A stretch of DNA of 64,000 bases from Marinilongibacter aquaticus (GTDB lineage Bacteria; Bacteroidota; Bacteroidia; Cytophagales; Spirosomataceae), in NCBI RefSeq assembly GCF_020149935.1, contig NZ_CP083757.1:4571933-4635932 (forward strand), written 5' to 3'. The notes beneath the pieces are model-generated. The model did no database searches. It was not told the DNA's origin and saw nothing but the letters and a program-made list of their open reading frames with translations. The position numbers and the translations under genes were made by a program. Of this stretch, positions 1,684 to 8,035 are shown piece after piece (position 1 is the first letter of the stretch; each line of letters starts with the position of its first letter).

Positions 1684-2145
1684 TTATACGCCAAACTGAC
1701 TCAAGTGATGGTCTAAATGTTTGTAAAACAATGTATTCCATTCGTTTTTGCTCAGCTTGCCAAAAGAATGTGATTCCTTTCCGTCGAAATGGTCTTCGCC
1801 CAGTTTTTGTGTTTCCTCAATGTACCGAATCAAACGGTTTTGTTCCTTTTCAAAATCACGTGTATCGCTGATTACAAAAATGGGGGCCGTACGGGTGTTT
1901 CGTTTATAAGGTTTCGTACCGACAACAACGGGTTTTGCCAACAATTGGATAAACTTTTGCATCAGAAAGTTGGGTTTCGGATATTTTTCAGGTTCGAAAA
2001 CAAGTTCGTAGGCTACGTTGACATGTGCCAGCATTTGGGCCACATTCATCTTGCCCCACTTTGCTTGCTTGTCTGCTTGCAATTGACGAATACGGTCGAT
2101 CATTTCCTGACTGACCTCTTCTGTGAAAATATTCTTAAAGTCCAT
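1684..2145 (-). CDS. DUF1569 / DinB-like protein
   Basis: A 153-residue cytoplasmic protein without a signal peptide. It looks like the DUF1569 family: a DinB-type four-helix bundle with histidines spaced along helices (AQMLAHVNVAYE near 37-48 and a C-terminal YKHLDHHLSQFGV near 141-153). DinB-fold proteins use such histidines for a metal site and many are thiol-dependent enzymes, but no reaction can be assigned here. It is the last gene of the minus-strand operon; its start overlaps the end of uvrC by 11 bp, which implies translational coupling. Whether it contributes to DNA repair is unknown. Confidence 0.75.
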   Translation of the reverse strand: MDFKNIFTEEVSQEMIDRIRQLQADKQAKWGKMNVAQMLAHVNVAYELVFEPEKYPKPNFLMQKFIQLLAKPVVVGTKPYKRNTRTAPIFVISDTRDFEKEQNRLIRYIEETQKLGEDHFDGKESHSFGKLSKNEWNTLFYKHLDHHLSQFGV

Positions 2146-3967
2146 TTTGTTCTTCGTTAATGTTTTCTAAATATTCCCGAATTCTACGGGTTTTATCTTT
2201 GCCAACTACTGAAACAAGTTCTTCTTCGCTTGCCGTTTTCAGGGCTTTGATGGTCTTGAAATGTTTCAATAGCTTGGTTGCGGTGGGCTTTCCGATGCCT
2301 TTGATCGATTCCAAACCACTGACCAAAAATCCTTTGCTGCGGCGGTTGCGGTGATGGGTGATCCCAAACCTGTGAGCTTCATCGCGGGCTCTTTGAATCA
2401 ATTTAAGCGATTCTGATTTCTTATCGATATAGAGCGGTAAAGTATCTTCCGGGAAATAGATTTCTTCCAATCTTTTGGCAATGCCGATAATAGGTATTTT
2501 GCCGTAAAGATGAAGTTCTTTCAATGCTGCAACGGAAGCCGACAATTGGCCTTTGCCTCCGTCGATGATGATCAGATCGGGCAGATCTTCGTTTTCTTCC
2601 ACCAACCGCTTGTATCTCCTAAAAACCACTTCTTTCATGGTGGCGAAATCGTCTGGGCCTTCTACGGTTTTCGGAATAAAGTGGCGGTATTCTTTTTTGG
2701 ATGGCTGGCCGTTTCGGAATAAAACCATTGCCGAAACGGGGTTTGTACCTTGAATATTCGAATTGTCGAAGCATTCTATATGTCGTGGAAGCTCTTTGAG
2801 TTGTAAGTCTTGTTTGAGCTTAATCAAGACGCGATCTCGCCGGTTTGTGGCCCCACTTTTGGCAATCATCTCCCTTTCGGCCTTTTCGTGGCGATAGAAC
2901 ATGATGTTTCGCAAAGTCATGTCTATCAGTTTTTTCTTGTCGCCGATTTTAGGTACCGCAATATTGGCCTTCAGGTCGGTTTCTAATGGAATATTGGTGA
3001 ATATTTCCTTTGCCGTACTTTCGTACTTGTGCCGAATTTCGAAAATTACTTTCTCCAAAACCTCTTCATCGGGTTCCTGAAGCATTTTCTTCACTTCGAA
3101 AGTTTGGGTTTGGGTAACTGTGCCGTTGTTGATTTTCAGATAACAAAAATAGGCCGCGTCTTCATCCGATTGTACGCCAAACACATCGGCATCATCAATC
3201 GAGGCGTTGACTACCGTGGCTTTCGCCTGATAATTCTCCAAAAACTCCAGTTTCTTTTTGTACTCATGGGCTTTTTCAAAGGCCATTTCTTTGGCGGCCC
3301 ATTGCATTTTTTCGAGGAAATAGTTTCTTGCGGGAGTTAGGTTGCCCTTCAAAATATGATGCACCTGATCGATTTCCTTCAAATATTCGGCTTCAGTTTG
3401 TAAATCTTCACAGGGCCCAAGGCAATTGCCAATGTGGTATTCGAGGCAAATTTTGTATTTGCGTTGAGTCACATTTTCTTCCGTGAGTGCATATTTACAG
3501 GTGCGAATGGTATACAATTGGGTGAACATATCGAGCAGAGCGTGCATGGCTTTCACATTCACATAAGGGCCATACATTTTGCCAAGCTTACGGTCTTCGA
3601 TTTTCCGCGTTTTCAATAGGCGGGGAAAACGTTCGTTTGTGACGCAGATGTACGGGTAATTTTTGTCGTCTTTGAGCATGATATTGAACTTCGGCTGCAG
3701 TTCTTTGATCATGTTGTTTTCGAGCAAAAGGGCTTCGTACTCAGAATCAACTACCGTATATTCCAATTTTCGGATGGACATAACCAACCTTTTGGTTTTT
3801 CTGTCAGTGCGATTGAAATTGTAGAAATAGCTGCTGATTCGATTTTTAAGGTTTTTGGCCTTTCCTACATAGATTATCGTTCCTTTTTCATCAAAATATT
3901 TGTAGATGCCCGGTTCATTGGGCAATAGGGGCAGTTGATTTTGATAATCGAATTTTATGGCCGACAT
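2135..3967 (-). CDS. uvrC: Excinuclease ABC subunit C
   Basis: A 610-residue protein of full UvrC length. It makes the dual incision in nucleotide excision repair with UvrA and UvrB. The N-terminus has a GIY-YIG nuclease domain (GIY at 20-22, YVGKAKNLKNR near 33-43) for the 3' cut. A UVR segment that pairs with UvrB lies near 200-240. The C-terminal half has the RNase H-like nuclease for the 5' cut, with aspartates in ECFDNSNIQGT and IIIDGGKGQL, and ends in tandem helix-hairpin-helix motifs (SIKGIGKPTATKLL). All catalytic motifs look intact. It sits 2 bp after the nucleotidyltransferase gene and overlaps DUF1569, so it is transcribed with the unusual peptide-modification-like cassette upstream. 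Confidence 0.97.
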   Translation of the reverse strand: MSAIKFDYQNQLPLLPNEPGIYKYFDEKGTIIYVGKAKNLKNRISSYFYNFNRTDRKTKRLVMSIRKLEYTVVDSEYEALLLENNMIKELQPKFNIMLKDDKNYPYICVTNERFPRLLKTRKIEDRKLGKMYGPYVNVKAMHALLDMFTQLYTIRTCKYALTEENVTQRKYKICLEYHIGNCLGPCEDLQTEAEYLKEIDQVHHILKGNLTPARNYFLEKMQWAAKEMAFEKAHEYKKKLEFLENYQAKATVVNASIDDADVFGVQSDEDAAYFCYLKINNGTVTQTQTFEVKKMLQEPDEEVLEKVIFEIRHKYESTAKEIFTNIPLETDLKANIAVPKIGDKKKLIDMTLRNIMFYRHEKAEREMIAKSGATNRRDRVLIKLKQDLQLKELPRHIECFDNSNIQGTNPVSAMVLFRNGQPSKKEYRHFIPKTVEGPDDFATMKEVVFRRYKRLVEENEDLPDLIIIDGGKGQLSASVAALKELHLYGKIPIIGIAKRLEEIYFPEDTLPLYIDKKSESLKLIQRARDEAHRFGITHHRNRRSKGFLVSGLESIKGIGKPTATKLLKHFKTIKALKTASEEELVSVVGKDKTRRIREYLENINEEQNGL

Positions 3968-3969
3968 GG

Positions 3970-5112
3970 CTATTTCTTGAATGTTCGGTTTAAAGCATAA
4001 GTAAGAACTTTGCTCAAAAAGTTCAAAAACAAATAGTTTTCTGGAAATGTGATCAGTCTTTTCTCTTCGACCGAATTCGGCCGAGTGTAGGCTCTCATGA
4101 AATTTCGTACATATTCAAAAGTGCTAGAAGAAGGATCCTGCGATTTCACAAGAATACGTTCATAGGCGATGCGTTCAAACGTCGTTTTCCAATGTTTTCC
4201 CTTGTTCCAAAATTTCAGCACCAAGTTTGGACAGGTGTGGTTTATTTGACGCTCTATTGATTTTAAGGCTGGGGGGATTTCGATATCCAAAAACGTGTCG
4301 ATCAAATATAAACCGTGCAAAAATTGACGATGAAGCTTAAAGGTTTTCATTTTTTCGATGATTGGTGGCCAATCCCAGTCATTCCCCACCTTTTGCATGA
4401 ATGCACCAAAATCGGCCAGTTCTTTCAATCTGAGCCAAGATTCCTTTCCACCATGATGGTTGAGGAGTGTCCAGAAAATTTGCTCCTCCTTGTCCAATTC
4501 AAATAAGAAATCATCAGGGTACGTATAGGGCAAAAAGTCGTAGCAAAGGCCCCAATGGATATCCAAGTGCAACTGATTTTTTATCATGGAAACTTCATGA
4601 ACAAAATTGTTTTTCAATTGCCCTTGTACTTCTTCCACGGTAATGATTTGGCCATTGAAATAATTGTGAATTTTGTAGTCGAAACTTTCGAGTAGCCGAA
4701 GCGATTCTATAATGTGTTTCTTCGAAATCAAGAGATCCAAATCACCTCCAGCCCGCAAACTCTCTGGATAGAGATAGTCGGAAAAAACGAAACCCTTAAA
4801 TGCCAAAATGGGCAAATTATGTTTATCGAACTCAGCTTTGAGTTTAGCGTATTCGGCTTTGAAACTCAGATCGAAAATGGCTTGCTTCATCCCGAATTGG
4901 CTCAATTCCACCTCATACCTTTCAGGGAATGGAAGGCCATTTTTTTTGAACATGGCATTCAACATGGGCTGCAAGCCATGTAAATCCTGCATTTCGAAAA
5001 ACTTTGGCCAATCAATATGTGCTGCCAAAGTTTTGTCCATTGGCCTTTTTTGGAAATAGGCCTTTAGGACTTCAAGCATCAATCGAACTTCATTATTGGG
5101 CTGCAAACTCAT
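3970..5112 (-). CDS. NTP_transf_5-type nucleotidyltransferase
   Basis: A 380-residue protein resembling the NTP_transf_5 family. The nucleotidyltransferase signature is visible: FKGFVFSDYLYP near 105-115 followed by AGGDLDLLIS, with the GG and paired aspartates at about 122-126. A third acidic residue probably comes from the LHLDIHW segment downstream. Members of this family occur in tailored lasso-peptide clusters (for example beside the HPr-kinase homologue in paeninodin-type clusters) and in capsule loci. Here it directly follows the HPr-kinase-like gene, overlapping it by 20 bp, and precedes uvrC by 2 bp. An alternative ATG 33 bp downstream would remove the overlap. The acceptor is unknown; peptide adenylylation is only a hypothesis. 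Confidence 0.75.
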   Translation of the reverse strand: MSLQPNNEVRLMLEVLKAYFQKRPMDKTLAAHIDWPKFFEMQDLHGLQPMLNAMFKKNGLPFPERYEVELSQFGMKQAIFDLSFKAEYAKLKAEFDKHNLPILAFKGFVFSDYLYPESLRAGGDLDLLISKKHIIESLRLLESFDYKIHNYFNGQIITVEEVQGQLKNNFVHEVSMIKNQLHLDIHWGLCYDFLPYTYPDDFLFELDKEEQIFWTLLNHHGGKESWLRLKELADFGAFMQKVGNDWDWPPIIEKMKTFKLHRQFLHGLYLIDTFLDIEIPPALKSIERQINHTCPNLVLKFWNKGKHWKTTFERIAYERILVKSQDPSSSTFEYVRNFMRAYTRPNSVEEKRLITFPENYLFLNFLSKVLTYALNRTFKK

Positions 5113-5989
5113 CGCAAAACTGTTTTAGGTTTTCGAAGCCATTCGGACGTTTCAAGAAGCGAAGAAATTCGCCTTGAGCCAAAAGACTGCTCCGTTCGAA
5201 ATGAGCTTTCAGGTTTGGGCCCGAAAGTGTTTGATGGGGAAGAGGATAATGCTTCAGCATTTCTGTCGAAGCCTGAATGCGATCGATTTGTGCCGTTTTT
5301 TCATGGTTCAGCATGTGTATTCCAGCCAAAGGGATTGGTGTGTTGGGGAAAGTCTCGAAATGCTGAGAAACCAAAAATTTTTCTTGTCCTTCAAAAGAAG
5401 GGCGTAGTATGGATTCGTCAATTTTCAATCCTTCAACGGTATTTTTCCAAATCTTAAATTGAGGGAAACCGGGGAAAACCTGAATTTGTTTTTCCTCGAA
5501 ATGCAATGCCACTAGGTCATCGGTTAAAATGGGAAAGCCAGCTTGCCAAAATGCGGCGGCCGTGGTCGATTTTCCGGCACCCGGTTCACCAACAAAGACA
5601 TGAGCCCTGTCTTTTATGAAGACGGCACTGCCGTGCAAAAGATATAAACCTTTTTGGAGCAGTGAAATGCCAATTATTTCACTCAGCAGAAATAGTTTTA
5701 GCGTGTGTATGCTGTCGCCCAAATGCGTGTAAACGATCTGGTTGCCTTCCTTAATTTGAGCACGTAACAAGCCCGGCCAATGCACAAAACAGTCTTGTGC
5801 ATTCGAGGCCACTTCCGCCTGCAATCCTTTCCTGAAAACCTTTGATTTATCCCAATCGGTTCGTTCATCTACCAAACCGGAAACAATTTTTATGTCGGGC
5901 GATTCATCCGAAGGGCAAAGCATATCGGAAAAATCCAAATCGCTGGAAACAGTTTGACCGAAAGCTTTGTAATTTTTCTTTATTTCCAT
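5093..5989 (-). CDS. HPr kinase-like P-loop protein of RiPP type
   Basis: A 298-residue protein starting at the ATG at 5989 (MEIKKNYKAF). The frame is open further upstream, but the longer start would overlap the B2 gene by 79 bp; the chosen start overlaps by 10 bp, in line with the rest of the operon. It has a Walker A motif GEPGAGKST at about 134-142 preceded by LLHGSAV, and TDDLVAL at about 156-162, the arrangement of HprK C-terminal kinase domains. It lacks the N-terminal domain of true HPr kinases. Homologues in lasso clusters phosphorylate a serine of the precursor peptide. The PqqD-B2-kinase-nucleotidyltransferase order supports that kind of role here, but no precursor is recognised. 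Confidence 0.8.
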   Translation of the reverse strand: MEIKKNYKAFGQTVSSDLDFSDMLCPSDESPDIKIVSGLVDERTDWDKSKVFRKGLQAEVASNAQDCFVHWPGLLRAQIKEGNQIVYTHLGDSIHTLKLFLLSEIIGISLLQKGLYLLHGSAVFIKDRAHVFVGEPGAGKSTTAAAFWQAGFPILTDDLVALHFEEKQIQVFPGFPQFKIWKNTVEGLKIDESILRPSFEGQEKFLVSQHFETFPNTPIPLAGIHMLNHEKTAQIDRIQASTEMLKHYPLPHQTLSGPNLKAHFERSSLLAQGEFLRFLKRPNGFENLKQFCDEFAAQ

Positions 5990-6396
5990 TCCCAAAGTGG
6001 CAAATAATTGAAGCTGGGCACATCGCCGATTAAGATATCTTCTTGTTTTTCTACCCAAGCGTGGGCGTCCAACTTATCTTTATTTATAGGGTTTATCCCA
6101 ATAACAAGCTTGTATTCGCTGTTGTTCGCGATCATTTTTTTAAAAGTTAGTGCTTGCGGAAGGCAATTGAAAGCTTTTGGGGCCACTAAAGCCGCTCTTT
6201 GAATGGCTTTTTTCAACTTTTCAGCATCGTTGCAATGCAAGCCGCTAGCGGTGTATCTGGAGTAATACTGTTTAAAGGCATTAAATCTCATCCATTTCAA
6301 ACGGATTTTCAAATTGAGCATGGACCGCAAAGCAAACCAGAAAAGCTTTTTTTCTTCTCTGCTCAGCCTATTGTATTTCGACCACCAGTTTCTCAT
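5980..6396 (-). CDS. Lasso peptide biosynthesis B2-like cysteine protease
   Basis: A 138-residue protein of the transglutaminase-like B2 family (Transglut_core3). In lasso-peptide biosynthesis B2 removes the leader peptide held by the PqqD-like B1 protein. The catalytic triad is complete by eye: Cys78 in FNCLPQALT, His112 in DAHAWVE and Asp125 in LIGDVPSF. The length is typical of stand-alone B2. The start ATG at 6396 overlaps the PqqD-like gene by 29 bp and the 3' end overlaps the kinase gene by 10 bp, so translation is probably coupled. No lasso cyclase (asparagine-synthetase-like) gene lies in the operon or elsewhere in the window, so the peptide substrate is unknown. Confidence 0.85.
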   Translation of the reverse strand: MRNWWSKYNRLSREEKKLFWFALRSMLNLKIRLKWMRFNAFKQYYSRYTASGLHCNDAEKLKKAIQRAALVAPKAFNCLPQALTFKKMIANNSEYKLVIGINPINKDKLDAHAWVEKQEDILIGDVPSFNYLPLWEWK

Positions 6397-6637
6397 CCAG
6401 TAAATCTTTGATCAATTCTTCTACATCGGCTAGGCATTCGTCTGTTTCTATTTCGAAATTTTCTGCCACAGCTTCCGCCAATTCGTTCAATGTGCTGGCT
6501 TTGTTTTCCAGTTGGCTCCAAATGAAGCTGCCCACTTCATTTAGATTATAATAAGTGCCTTTTTCGTGGTTTAGTATTACGGATTCTCCAGAAAGGCTGC
6601 TCGAAACTTGATTCTCGCTTAACGTATATTTTTTCAT
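6368..6637 (-). CDS. PqqD family peptide-binding chaperone (B1-like)
   Basis: An 89-residue protein of the PqqD / RiPP recognition element type, a small winged-helix-like fold that binds the leader of a precursor peptide and presents it to modifying enzymes. The family pattern is visible: a beta-hairpin region ESVILNHEKGTYYNLNEVGS (20-39) followed by a helix GSFIWSQLE, and a C-terminal two-helix part that packs DECLADVEELIKDLLDEKLV. Its ATG at 6637 lies 1 bp after the stop of the 46-residue peptide gene, and it overlaps the B2 gene by 29 bp. It is the expected B1 partner of the downstream protease. Confidence 0.85.
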   Translation of the reverse strand: MKKYTLSENQVSSSLSGESVILNHEKGTYYNLNEVGSFIWSQLENKASTLNELAEAVAENFEIETDECLADVEELIKDLLDEKLVVEIQ

Positions 6638-6638
6638 T

Positions 6639-6779
6639 CTACCCTTGGCAGTTAATAATTCCTTTTGTCACTAAATAAGGCAAAATTATGTAAAGCGTCA
6701 CGCCTTTGATAAGGAAAAAGAAAAAACCTGCCCAGCCCAGTTTTTTCAGCCATGCTATAATTTTCTCTTTTCGGTTCAT
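6639..6779 (-). CDS. 46-residue single-pass membrane peptide
   Basis: A small ORF of 46 codons fully supported by context. Its ATG at 6779 overlaps the TGA of the DUF3822 gene in an ATGA arrangement, and its TAG ends 1 bp before the ATG of the PqqD-like gene. The peptide has a basic amphipathic N-terminus (MNRKEKIIAWLKKLGW), one hydrophobic segment of about residues 17-36 containing FFFFLIKG, and a short tail ending INCQG. It contains no serine. It resembles small conserved Bacteroidota membrane peptides with a GFxFFLIKG motif that I recall but cannot name with certainty. It could be a membrane anchor or small subunit, or less likely the substrate of the downstream machinery. It does not look like a classical lasso precursor. 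Confidence 0.7.
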   Translation of the reverse strand: MNRKEKIIAWLKKLGWAGFFFFLIKGVTLYIILPYLVTKGIINCQG

Positions 6780-7567
6780 TGCTGACTAAATATGCTATAA
6801 TATCTATGAAATGGAGTGTCCTGAAAATATTGAGAACGTTTTATTTCATCTTTTGATTCAAGCAAGAGCAAATTGCCGACATAATTTTCCAAAGTACGAA
6901 AAGCCTTCGAATAGGCTGTAACCTCGCCGCACACGCGAACACTCTCGAGCTTGGATTGGGTTTTAAGATAGGCTACTAAGTCTTCGATCCGGGCAAACCA
7001 ATACGAATTGATATGTCTTTTTCCGAACACTAAACTGATGCCATCTTCCTGAAAATAGATATACGTCCAGAAGTTTTGCTGAAGGTCAAATTGCTGTTCG
7101 GCCAGCTTGATCTCCAATTTATCCGCTCCATACAAGTTTTGAAGAAATTGTACGATGCTTTCGTGTCCTGCAAAAACAAAAGTGCCTTCTTTTTCAAAAG
7201 AATGATGAGTTTTTCGTTCGGTTTGGAAAAGGTGTTGGCCAATTCTTTGTGCTTGTTCTTCCGTAATTCGGCTGGGCACAAATGTTTTGTAACTGGCCTG
7301 GCATAAAAGCGTGACTTTCCGCCAAAACCGTACCGATAAAAACTTATGAGATTGTACAGTGGCCTGAACAAAAGCCAATTTGTTTTCTCTGTGCCGAAGC
7401 GAATAATCCTCGAGCCACACAAAATAGCCGCGGCCATTGCGAATGCCAAAGCGAAAGCAGCCATCGCTCAATTCAAATATCAATTCCGCATCGTGTATTT
7501 CGTCTACACCAAAGCGGTCGTCCTGTACTTGGTATTTAGGAGTAATATGTGTCTCTTGTTCAGTCAA
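6776..7567 (-). CDS. DUF3822 family protein, TTG start
   Basis: A 263-residue cytoplasmic protein resembling DUF3822, a family largely confined to Bacteroidota with an actin-like/RNase H-like fold and no assigned reaction. The N-terminal ELIFELSDGCFRFGI strand pair and a later VFGKRHINSYWF region support this. The start must be the TTG at 7567: a stop codon lies two codons upstream in this frame and the next ATG is deep inside the domain. This TTG overlaps the TGA of the NUDIX gene by 8 bp, so coupling may compensate for a weak start. The end overlaps the small membrane peptide gene in an ATGA junction. Confidence 0.75.
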   Translation of the reverse strand: MTEQETHITPKYQVQDDRFGVDEIHDAELIFELSDGCFRFGIRNGRGYFVWLEDYSLRHRENKLAFVQATVQSHKFLSVRFWRKVTLLCQASYKTFVPSRITEEQAQRIGQHLFQTERKTHHSFEKEGTFVFAGHESIVQFLQNLYGADKLEIKLAEQQFDLQQNFWTYIYFQEDGISLVFGKRHINSYWFARIEDLVAYLKTQSKLESVRVCGEVTAYSKAFRTLENYVGNLLLLESKDEIKRSQYFQDTPFHRYYSIFSQQ

Positions 7568-8009
7568 AGTCTAAGTCTTTTGTCAAAAATGTGGGTTTTG
7601 CCAATGGATTTATGATTCTGAATTCTTCTTTCGAAAACCAAGCCAATTCGGCCAGTGTATGCACAGCTTCGGGATCTTCGCCCAGAAGGGCGTTTCCGTG
7701 CACGTGTTTTACTTCGAAATAGAATTCTAAAGCGTGCAAAGGTTTTTGGATAAACTCGTGGACAGTCAATAGATTCCCGCAGCGAACACGCATTCCTGTT
7801 TCTTCGAAAAACTCTCTTTCCACGGCTTCTCTCAAGCCTTCTCCTTTTTCTGGTTCACCGCCCGGTACGTTCCAAAAGTAATTCAATGCACCAATGCCCT
7901 GATGTTTCAGCATCAACAATTTTTTGTCCATAAGCAGGCATCCGCAGGCCCGAATCCGAATGCGGCCGCCGTAGTATGCCTCGATTTTCTTACGGATATT
8001 TTCCGACAT
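7560..8009 (-). CDS. NUDIX hydrolase
   Basis: A 149-residue protein with a complete Nudix box: the glycine of PGGEPEKGEG, then REAVEREFFEETGM (about residues 56-79), giving the GX5EX7REUXEEXGU pattern. It hydrolyses a nucleoside diphosphate linked to another moiety, using the box glutamates to bind Mg2+. The substrate cannot be read from the sequence. The ATG at 8009 is preferred over an in-frame TTG 18 bp upstream because the homologous region begins just after it and a good promoter lies 20 bp upstream. It is the first gene of the nine-gene operon that runs to 1684. Confidence 0.9.
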   Translation of the reverse strand: MSENIRKKIEAYYGGRIRIRACGCLLMDKKLLMLKHQGIGALNYFWNVPGGEPEKGEGLREAVEREFFEETGMRVRCGNLLTVHEFIQKPLHALEFYFEVKHVHGNALLGEDPEAVHTLAELAWFSKEEFRIINPLAKPTFLTKDLDFD

Positions 8010-8035
8010 TATTGGATATGGGCTCAATAATTGAT

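Follow-up and report, generated by a model that had tools for sequence, protein, structure and literature searches.

A lasso-type tailoring cassette in the uvrC operon of Marinilongibacter aquaticus as the likely hub of a split, trans-acting pathway coupled to type IX secretion

The window analysed here, a stretch of 64,000 nucleotides of Marinilongibacter aquaticus, is the last 64 kb of a single contig of 4,635,932 bases (NZ_CP083757.1). Within it, a cassette of four genes that resemble the enzymes of tailored lasso peptide pathways is embedded in an operon with uvrC. On the minus strand the order is NUDIX, DUF3822, an open reading frame (ORF) of 46 amino acids (aa), PqqD, B2, kinase, NTP_transf_5 and uvrC, mostly with overlapping ends. 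The four cassette genes overlap one another, the ATG of the kinase gene overlapping the stop codon of B2, and uvrC starts 2 bp downstream. The features are as follows.

6368..6637, minus strand: PqqD-like discrete RRE (recognition element of ribosomally synthesized and post-translationally modified peptides, RiPPs), the B1 protein; Pfam PqqD, 74 bits.
5980..6396, minus strand: B2-like leader peptidase; Transglut_core3, 52.7 bits; NCBIfam lasso_biosyn_B2, 51.3 bits against a cut-off of 33.
5093..5989, minus strand: HPr-kinase-like putative peptide kinase; motif H...GxPGAGKST...TDDL; weak HprK-type matches.
3970..5112, minus strand: NTP_transf_5 nucleotidyltransferase-like tailoring enzyme (PsmN/BsfN type); Pfam, 99.3 bits; GDLDL motif.
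6639..6779, minus strand: 46-aa membrane microprotein, one helix predicted from its sequence; a member of the operon outside the lasso system.
2135..3967, minus strand: uvrC, host operon gene at the insertion site; TIGR00194, 499.7 bits.
6776..7567, minus strand: DUF3822 protein, host operon; Pfam, 55.6 bits.
7560..8027, minus strand: NUDIX hydrolase, host operon; Pfam, 57.6 bits.

An earlier note on this DNA had read the order PqqD, B2, kinase and NTP_transf_5 as that of tailored paeninodin-type enzymes, and had described the genes as overlapping and joined to NUDIX, DUF3822 and uvrC. Profile searches identified all four enzymes in their places and confirmed the arrangement. For PqqD the best NCBIfam family is lasso_PqqD_Bac (66.9 bits, under the cut-off of 80), and its family profile has as top PDB match the lasso B1 protein TbiB1 (5v1u, E 6e-18), the closest solved relative. 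The Cys78/His112/Asp125 triad of B2, which had been called complete, holds in part: all 17 aligned sequences have Cys78 and His112, and Asp125 is replaced by E or A in some relatives. The best HprK-type match of the kinase is TIGR04352, at 31.1 bits against a cut-off of 200, and PqqD scores 20 bits against the cut-off of 35 of TIGR04353, so that neither protein falls within the HPr-rel-A families. The strict kinase motif was found in nine of 12 sequences, the remaining three retaining the P-loop and the Asp pair; the NTP_transf_5 motif pattern likewise occurs in nine of 12, the others having GDIDM, SDLDL and SDIDL. Catalytic motifs of B2, kinase and NTP_transf_5 are all intact in the cassette. 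The kinase motif agrees with the one given for lasso kinases in the excerpted text of PMC10368454 (all papers cited here by accession are represented by excerpts).

Neither a cyclase nor an ORF with a lasso leader is present among the genes of the operon. The earlier statement that both are lacking is thus correct for the locus and does not extend to the genome, which holds a cyclase homologue and four lasso-leader ORFs more than 2 Mb away. These four ORFs score above the cut-off (19 bits) of the lasso leader family NF033521 and have their low ends at 2,064,211, 2,066,521, 2,268,428 and 2,273,252; the nearest lies more than 2.1 Mb from the cassette even if the contig is circular. One of them, a 41-aa ORF of 22 bits, is near the cyclase homologue (locus L042), which was recovered at 2.265 Mb, with an intact PP-loop, by the genome-wide search that the note had proposed. 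The layout is therefore not that of a single cluster: the cassette lies at 4.576 Mb, the precursors at 2.064-2.273 Mb and the cyclase at 2.265 Mb. PqqD has a single match in the whole genome at E 0.001, B2 is the single gene above the Pfam cut-off, and NTP_transf_5 has a single match. Because these three enzymes are single-copy, no candidate for processing the precursors was found other than the cassette at uvrC. The expectation that some peptide is processed here is supported. Of the refuting result that the note had named, a complete lasso cluster elsewhere in the genome that would use these proteins, half is seen: cyclase and precursors do lie elsewhere, but no second B1 or B2 exceeds the Pfam cut-off. 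It is very likely that the cassette is the hub of a split, trans-acting lasso-type pathway, with four precursors and a cyclase more than 2 Mb away, that is coupled to the type IX secretion system (T9SS).

Short ORFs in and near the operon had also been proposed as a place to look for a precursor. One conserved ORF there, the 46-aa microprotein upstream of PqqD, was considered as a hidden precursor and rejected: it is widespread, mostly located elsewhere, and missing in Jiulongibacter sediminis (L026) despite the presence of the cassette. It occurs in 107 of 200 genomes of the family with one match each and at changing loci, 24 of 30 inspected loci being outside any uvrC-type operon. Its sequence pattern is GWAGFxFFLxKG...PYL, probably forming one helix, and 1269 protein matches were obtained in a large collection.

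The lasso leader residues Y-17, P-14, L-12 and T-2 are present in all four precursors of the genome. The same register is printed for bsf-type lasso leaders in the excerpt of Duan et al. (PMC10368454), and Thr(-2) is stated there to occur in all lasso precursors reported before that work. In an alignment of 23 precursors, Tyr, Gly and Thr of the leader and Lys, Gly, Ser and Asp of the core are invariant. The best 120 of 256 matches in a protein collection were then scanned for a Thr with Gly, Ser/Thr and an acidic residue/Asn at fixed distances behind it; Lys1 was not required. Among the 118 that fit the scan, Lys1 was found in 118 and Asp7 in 117. Counted from Lys1, Y-17 and P-14 are each present in 117 of these 118, and L, I, V or M at -12 in 118. 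The core motif K-x-G-S-x-x-D is thus nearly fixed across genera; precursors outside the best 120 are weaker relatives and may vary more. Lasso rings have 7-9 residues according to the excerpt of PMC8498205, and a ring closed at Asp7 would have seven residues, within this range. P0220 and P0234 are longer by one or two residues, and their rings, starting at Gly, would have sizes of 8 and 9.

Co-occurrence of the components was studied in a sample of 59 genomes, the present one included, and in a separate draw of 200 genomes of the family. In the first, a B2 homologue was found in 17 genomes (own genome counted), and leader matches over the cut-off in 10, all among these 17. Cyclases of at least 300 bits were present in 14 of the 17 B2 genomes. 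Among the other 42 genomes no cyclase reached this level, the top score being 189 bits; eight of the 14 had given sequences to the profile and six are independent. In the second sample B2 was strong in 85 genomes, eight more having weak or cut matches only, and precursors were present in 83 of the 85 compared to 3 of the 115 others. The profiles used (A3, A4, A5 and A9) were built from earlier matches, and contributing genomes match by construction; with the 17 genomes that feed the B2 profile removed, all precursor contributors among them, precursors were found in 68 of 68 strong-B2 genomes. In two genera in which both states occur, both components were present in six genomes and neither in four, and both in 26 and neither in eight, respectively, with none discordant among the genomes listed. 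A scan of named genomes with three B2 sequences gave only Jiulongibacter sediminis and a distant deltaproteobacterial match, and a search for B2 on plasmids gave no match.

A search of the whole genome with Asn_synthase gave three matches above the cut-off (L042, L043 and L044). L042, a protein of 606 aa, has as best NCBIfam family the lasso cyclase NF033535 (207 bits) and carries the intact PP-loop motif HLSGGLDSSSV. The third, L044, has 440 aa. Between 2,264,805 and 2,268,553 (G000), nuoD (424 aa, opposite strand) and a PspC-like gene separate the L042 cyclase from its nearest precursor; since nuoD sits between them, the cyclase-precursor neighbourhood is itself broken by a respiratory gene. 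L043:5896-7614, at 3.961 Mb, is a second lasso-cyclase homologue with the degenerate PP-loop LVNDLDSE. It stands alone, with no lipoprotein or PorU2 beside it, between accC-like and UvrD-type helicase genes (named from their sequences, without a domain scan), and the same flanks hold an intact triad of cyclase, lipoprotein and PorU2 in L156, L157 and L158. On account of its PP-loop, L043 was dropped as a candidate partner and is regarded as a remnant left at the ancestral site. The core type is DGF/DAF in this genome and DFG in J. sediminis. Judged from synteny, the genome seems to have switched cyclase and core type with the hub retained at uvrC. Another branch of lasso-cyclase-like proteins lies beside genes for short secreted proteins that resemble curli genes in L161, L162 and L163; no PorU2 was found within the stretches inspected there, and in L163 a possible precursor of a different core type is located directly behind the cyclase.

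The precursors could also be cut and phosphorylated and yet stay linear, the distant cyclase homologue acting on something else. Cyclase and cassette are not co-transcribed, the 207 bits of the cyclase are far under the NF033535 cut-off of 525, and position 1 of the core is Lys, all of which would suit a linear product. Against it speak the presence of Asp7, a permitted ring position, in 117 of 118 cores, the distribution of cyclases among B2 genomes (14 of 17 compared to 0 of 42) and the direct contact of cyclase and precursor genes in L117, L122, L123, L125 and L165. A linear peptide is accordingly improbable.

The location of the cassette was compared among relatives. The full order NUDIX-DUF3822-microprotein-PqqD-B2-kinase-NTP_transf_5-uvrC recurs in L027, L037 and L038 (with uvrC interrupted by a contig end). 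In J. sediminis (L026) the same order is found at uvrC with no microprotein between DUF3822 and PqqD. L040 shows NUDIX through B2, with an extra ORF on the opposite strand, before the contig ends. The recurring gene order is more than chance. In another species of the same genus (G001, L054), NUDIX, DUF3822, the microprotein and uvrC follow each other with nothing in between, which represents an empty site. In other genera the same enzymes are found beside other genes, at other places. A protein of about 355 aa adjoins PqqD-B2 in three relatives (L029:7455-8516, L034:9469-10533 and L036:9412-10488); the two copies that were scanned match no Pfam family. It may be an additional tailoring enzyme.

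Four other genomes, and probably a fifth in which the contig ends first, have the cassette at the same place next to uvrC, which could be taken to mean that it has been recruited to DNA-damage metabolism, a link that the earlier note had considered. We rejected this role, which is most improbable: the related G001 has the operon without the cassette, the same genes lie elsewhere in other genera, and B2, precursors, lasso-type cyclase (best 116 bits) and PorU2 are all absent together from G001. Because of this empty site and the other locations in other genera, the uvrC operon is likely to be the host site and not the function, the position there reflecting incidental co-transcription. It is just as hard to accept the cassette as the remnant of a lasso cluster that has been lost. 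The degenerate PP-loop of L043, alone where its relatives have the intact triad, would agree with such a loss. The intact catalytic motifs, the second cyclase with an intact PP-loop together with four precursors, and the clean absence of the cassette from G001, with no sign of decay, speak against it.

The coupling to type IX secretion is indicated by the neighbours of the precursors. In the genome studied here, the gene in front of each precursor encodes a predicted secreted protein of 352-362 aa, with the precursor beginning 24-28 bp downstream of it. A T9SS type A sorting domain (E 0.01) was detected in 32 of 41 precursor neighbours. Of 104 control ORFs from these loci, 10 had it, the controls including 9 PorU2 matches, which can carry such tails themselves. 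The 41 neighbours derive from 44 precursor-like ORFs, a spurious one (L118 8679-8846) and two without neighbours (L115, L236) being dropped. L163 was retained in spite of a core outside the pattern and a cyclase as neighbour; in L122 and L230 the neighbour chosen is the triad-type lipoprotein (in L230 judged by sequence ends only), and in L118 the rule picked a 93-aa ORF over a 346-aa neighbour, which was counted among the controls. When a profile of the sorting tail, made from eight neighbours, was searched against four genomes, 12 strong matches (85-146 bits) were obtained, each of them 22-110 bp from a precursor. A further 18 matches were weak (at most 33 bits), and none of these is within 5 kb of a listed precursor. 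Of the 12 strong matches, seven had contributed to the profile; the other five, from G005 (one), G019 (one) and G025 (three), are independent of it and behave alike. As strong matches occur only beside precursors, the independent ones included, the proteins paired with precursors have a sorting-tail subtype to themselves in these four genomes.

The cyclases are paired in a similar manner. A total of 22 cyclase genes was inspected, namely 21 of the 22 of at least 300 bits (G013:C43 was left out) and the 211-bit L166. A PorU2-type protein of the C25 family is encoded within about 6 kb in 17 of these 22 loci, and in 15 of the 17 there is, in addition, a lipoprotein (about 220 aa) bearing a lipobox cysteine. 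All five C25 proteins scanned are PorU2 (NF052324, 692-927 bits, cut-off 450), with 713.5 bits for that of the present genome; against PorU (NF033707, cut-off 420) four of the five score 138-192 bits and the fifth has no match listed. The PorU2 of this genome retains a GHA...GCG stretch, which presumably holds the His-Cys catalytic pair. PorU2 (E 1e-50) was found in 86 of 86 precursor genomes and in 84 of 85 B2 genomes. Since it is also present in 74 of 115 genomes without strong B2, PorU2 must have other uses too, and it failed as a strict marker of the system. In Spirosoma radiotolerans (G006; L169, L039), PorU2, lipoprotein, cyclase, NTP_transf_5, B2, PqqD, precursor and cargo are found together, and no kinase was recognised in this compact cluster. 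The triad lipoprotein (L042:5154-5810 and relatives, A10) has the lipobox Cys and two C-terminal Cys invariant in 15 aligned sequences. It gave 34 protein matches in the collection, with no Pfam match in the two scanned (L157, L042) and no NCBIfam match in two scanned; the predicted fold (predicted local distance difference test 87) consists mostly of strands, and the structure matches listed are weak (TM-score at most 0.39).

The steps of the pathway can be proposed from these components. PqqD, predicted to bind leader peptides, would recognise Y-x-x-P-x-L. B2 is predicted to cleave behind the residue next after Thr(-2); a cut at this place, two residues after the Thr, would leave the core K1-x-G3-S4-x-x-D7. 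The kinase is predicted to phosphorylate the core, perhaps at Ser4, after which NTP_transf_5 may add a further group. PsmN of pseudomycoidin is tied to the addition of a hexose on phosphorylated serine in the excerpt of PMC9266682, and this bounds the possible role of NTP_transf_5 here. The cyclase homologue would then join the amine of Lys1 to Asp7 to form a 7-residue ring, and the mature peptide would act at the cell surface with the paired T9SS protein and PorU2. Ring closure is what we infer, as is any ligation by PorU2.

How the peptide is used was considered in two ways. The peptides may be ordinary secreted lasso signals or antimicrobials, with the T9SS protein as no more than an exported partner, for instance a receptor or an immunity factor, and PorU2 without a chemical role. 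This is possible, though short of probable. In its favour, the same enzymes occur in known lasso pathways, release is usual for lasso natural products, and PorU2 extends, as described above, to many genomes without strong B2. Antimicrobial cores are variable, whereas K-x-G-S-x-x-D is nearly fixed across genera, and the tail subtype of the paired protein is confined to precursor neighbours in the four genomes searched; both speak against this reading. The other proposal, which we hold tentatively and regard as rather unlikely, is that a genetically encoded surface anchor is the product of the cassette: a conserved lasso-type macrolactam in which the free side-chain amine of the invariant Lys1 would serve as acceptor for PorU2. 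PorU of Porphyromonas gingivalis forms a peptide bond between the C-terminus of its cargo and an amine; when anionic lipopolysaccharide (A-LPS) is lacking, it appears to use various amine-containing molecules (excerpt of PMC4560394). Because PorU accepts amines in this way, the amine of the invariant peptide Lys is a plausible acceptor. By this hypothesis PorU2 would join the partner T9SS protein to the peptide after removing the dedicated sorting tail, and a RiPP would take the place that is held by A-LPS for PorU in Porphyromonas.

Several observations weigh against a hub that serves a lasso-type pathway coupled to T9SS. Besides the low family score of the L042 cyclase and the broad distribution of PorU2, five of the 22 cyclase genes have no PorU2 in the inspected stretch. 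First residues observed in lasso peptides are Gly, Cys, Ser and Ala, with Asn newly reported in 2025 (excerpt of PMC12670498), and Lys1 is unusual compared to these. The best 120 precursor relatives were ranked by profile similarity, which favours a uniform core, and Gly3 was demanded by the scan. There is no exporter among the operon genes, no search for one having been made elsewhere in the genome. No kinase was recognised near B2 in L034, L035, L039 (the compact cluster) and L041, the kinase of the L034 genome being about 14 kb away, and no NTP_transf_5 near B2 in L028, L029, L034 and L041. In the sample of 59, 13 further genomes have leader matches below the cut-off, eight of them without B2. 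In the sample of 200, B2 occurs without a precursor in G011 and G024, and a precursor without strong B2 in three genomes of one genus, G072, G150 (in which B2 is cut by the contig end) and G159. The co-occurrence statistics (Fisher) ignore the relatedness of the genomes. With these points taken into account, the split pathway with its hub at uvrC remains very likely.

Lasso pathways are usually clustered, and here one hub appears to serve several scattered precursors in trans. Mining based on clusters would label such a hub an orphan and overlook its peptides. The near-fixed core, and the pairing with T9SS proteins that have their own tail subtype, suggest parts of export or anchoring rather than weapons. 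PorU2, a putative sortase, gains a candidate partner, and what the sortases of T9SS attach outside Porphyromonas becomes testable with a handful of small genes. In literature searches that left most subscription papers outside, no paper was found that combines 'lasso peptide' or 'PorU2' with 'type IX secretion'. The four papers that name RiPP, type IX secretion and Bacteroidota do not, by their titles, concern this system, and 'lasso RiPP family leader' was found in one paper, on Streptomyces.

Among known systems, the closest are the paeninodin, pseudomycoidin and bsf pathways (PadeK, PsmK/PsmN and BsfK/BsfN), in which, as here, an HPr-like kinase stands beside lasso B1 and B2; pseudomycoidin and bsf have a nucleotidyltransferase too (excerpts of PMC9266682 and PMC10368454). 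The YxxPxL leader, Thr(-2) in most precursors and the Asp at a lasso ring position are common to all of them. The present system differs in that its genes are split over the chromosome with several precursors in trans, its core is near-invariant with Lys1, and its operon has no exporter (with no search elsewhere). It differs also in that the precursors are paired with T9SS cargo and the cyclase with PorU2. HPr-rel-A (TIGR04352, TIGR04353) is alike in having an HprK-like kinase and a PqqD-family chaperone, but the scores here are far under both cut-offs. The four precursors exceed the cut-off of NF033521, and some relatives are already named lasso RiPP family leader peptide-containing protein; this family covers the leader only, whereas the fixed core, the pairing with cargo and the trans-acting hub are features of the system described here. 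Finally, PorU joins its cargo to A-LPS, and PorU2 has a candidate partner in the conserved peptides encoded beside the T9SS cargo genes.

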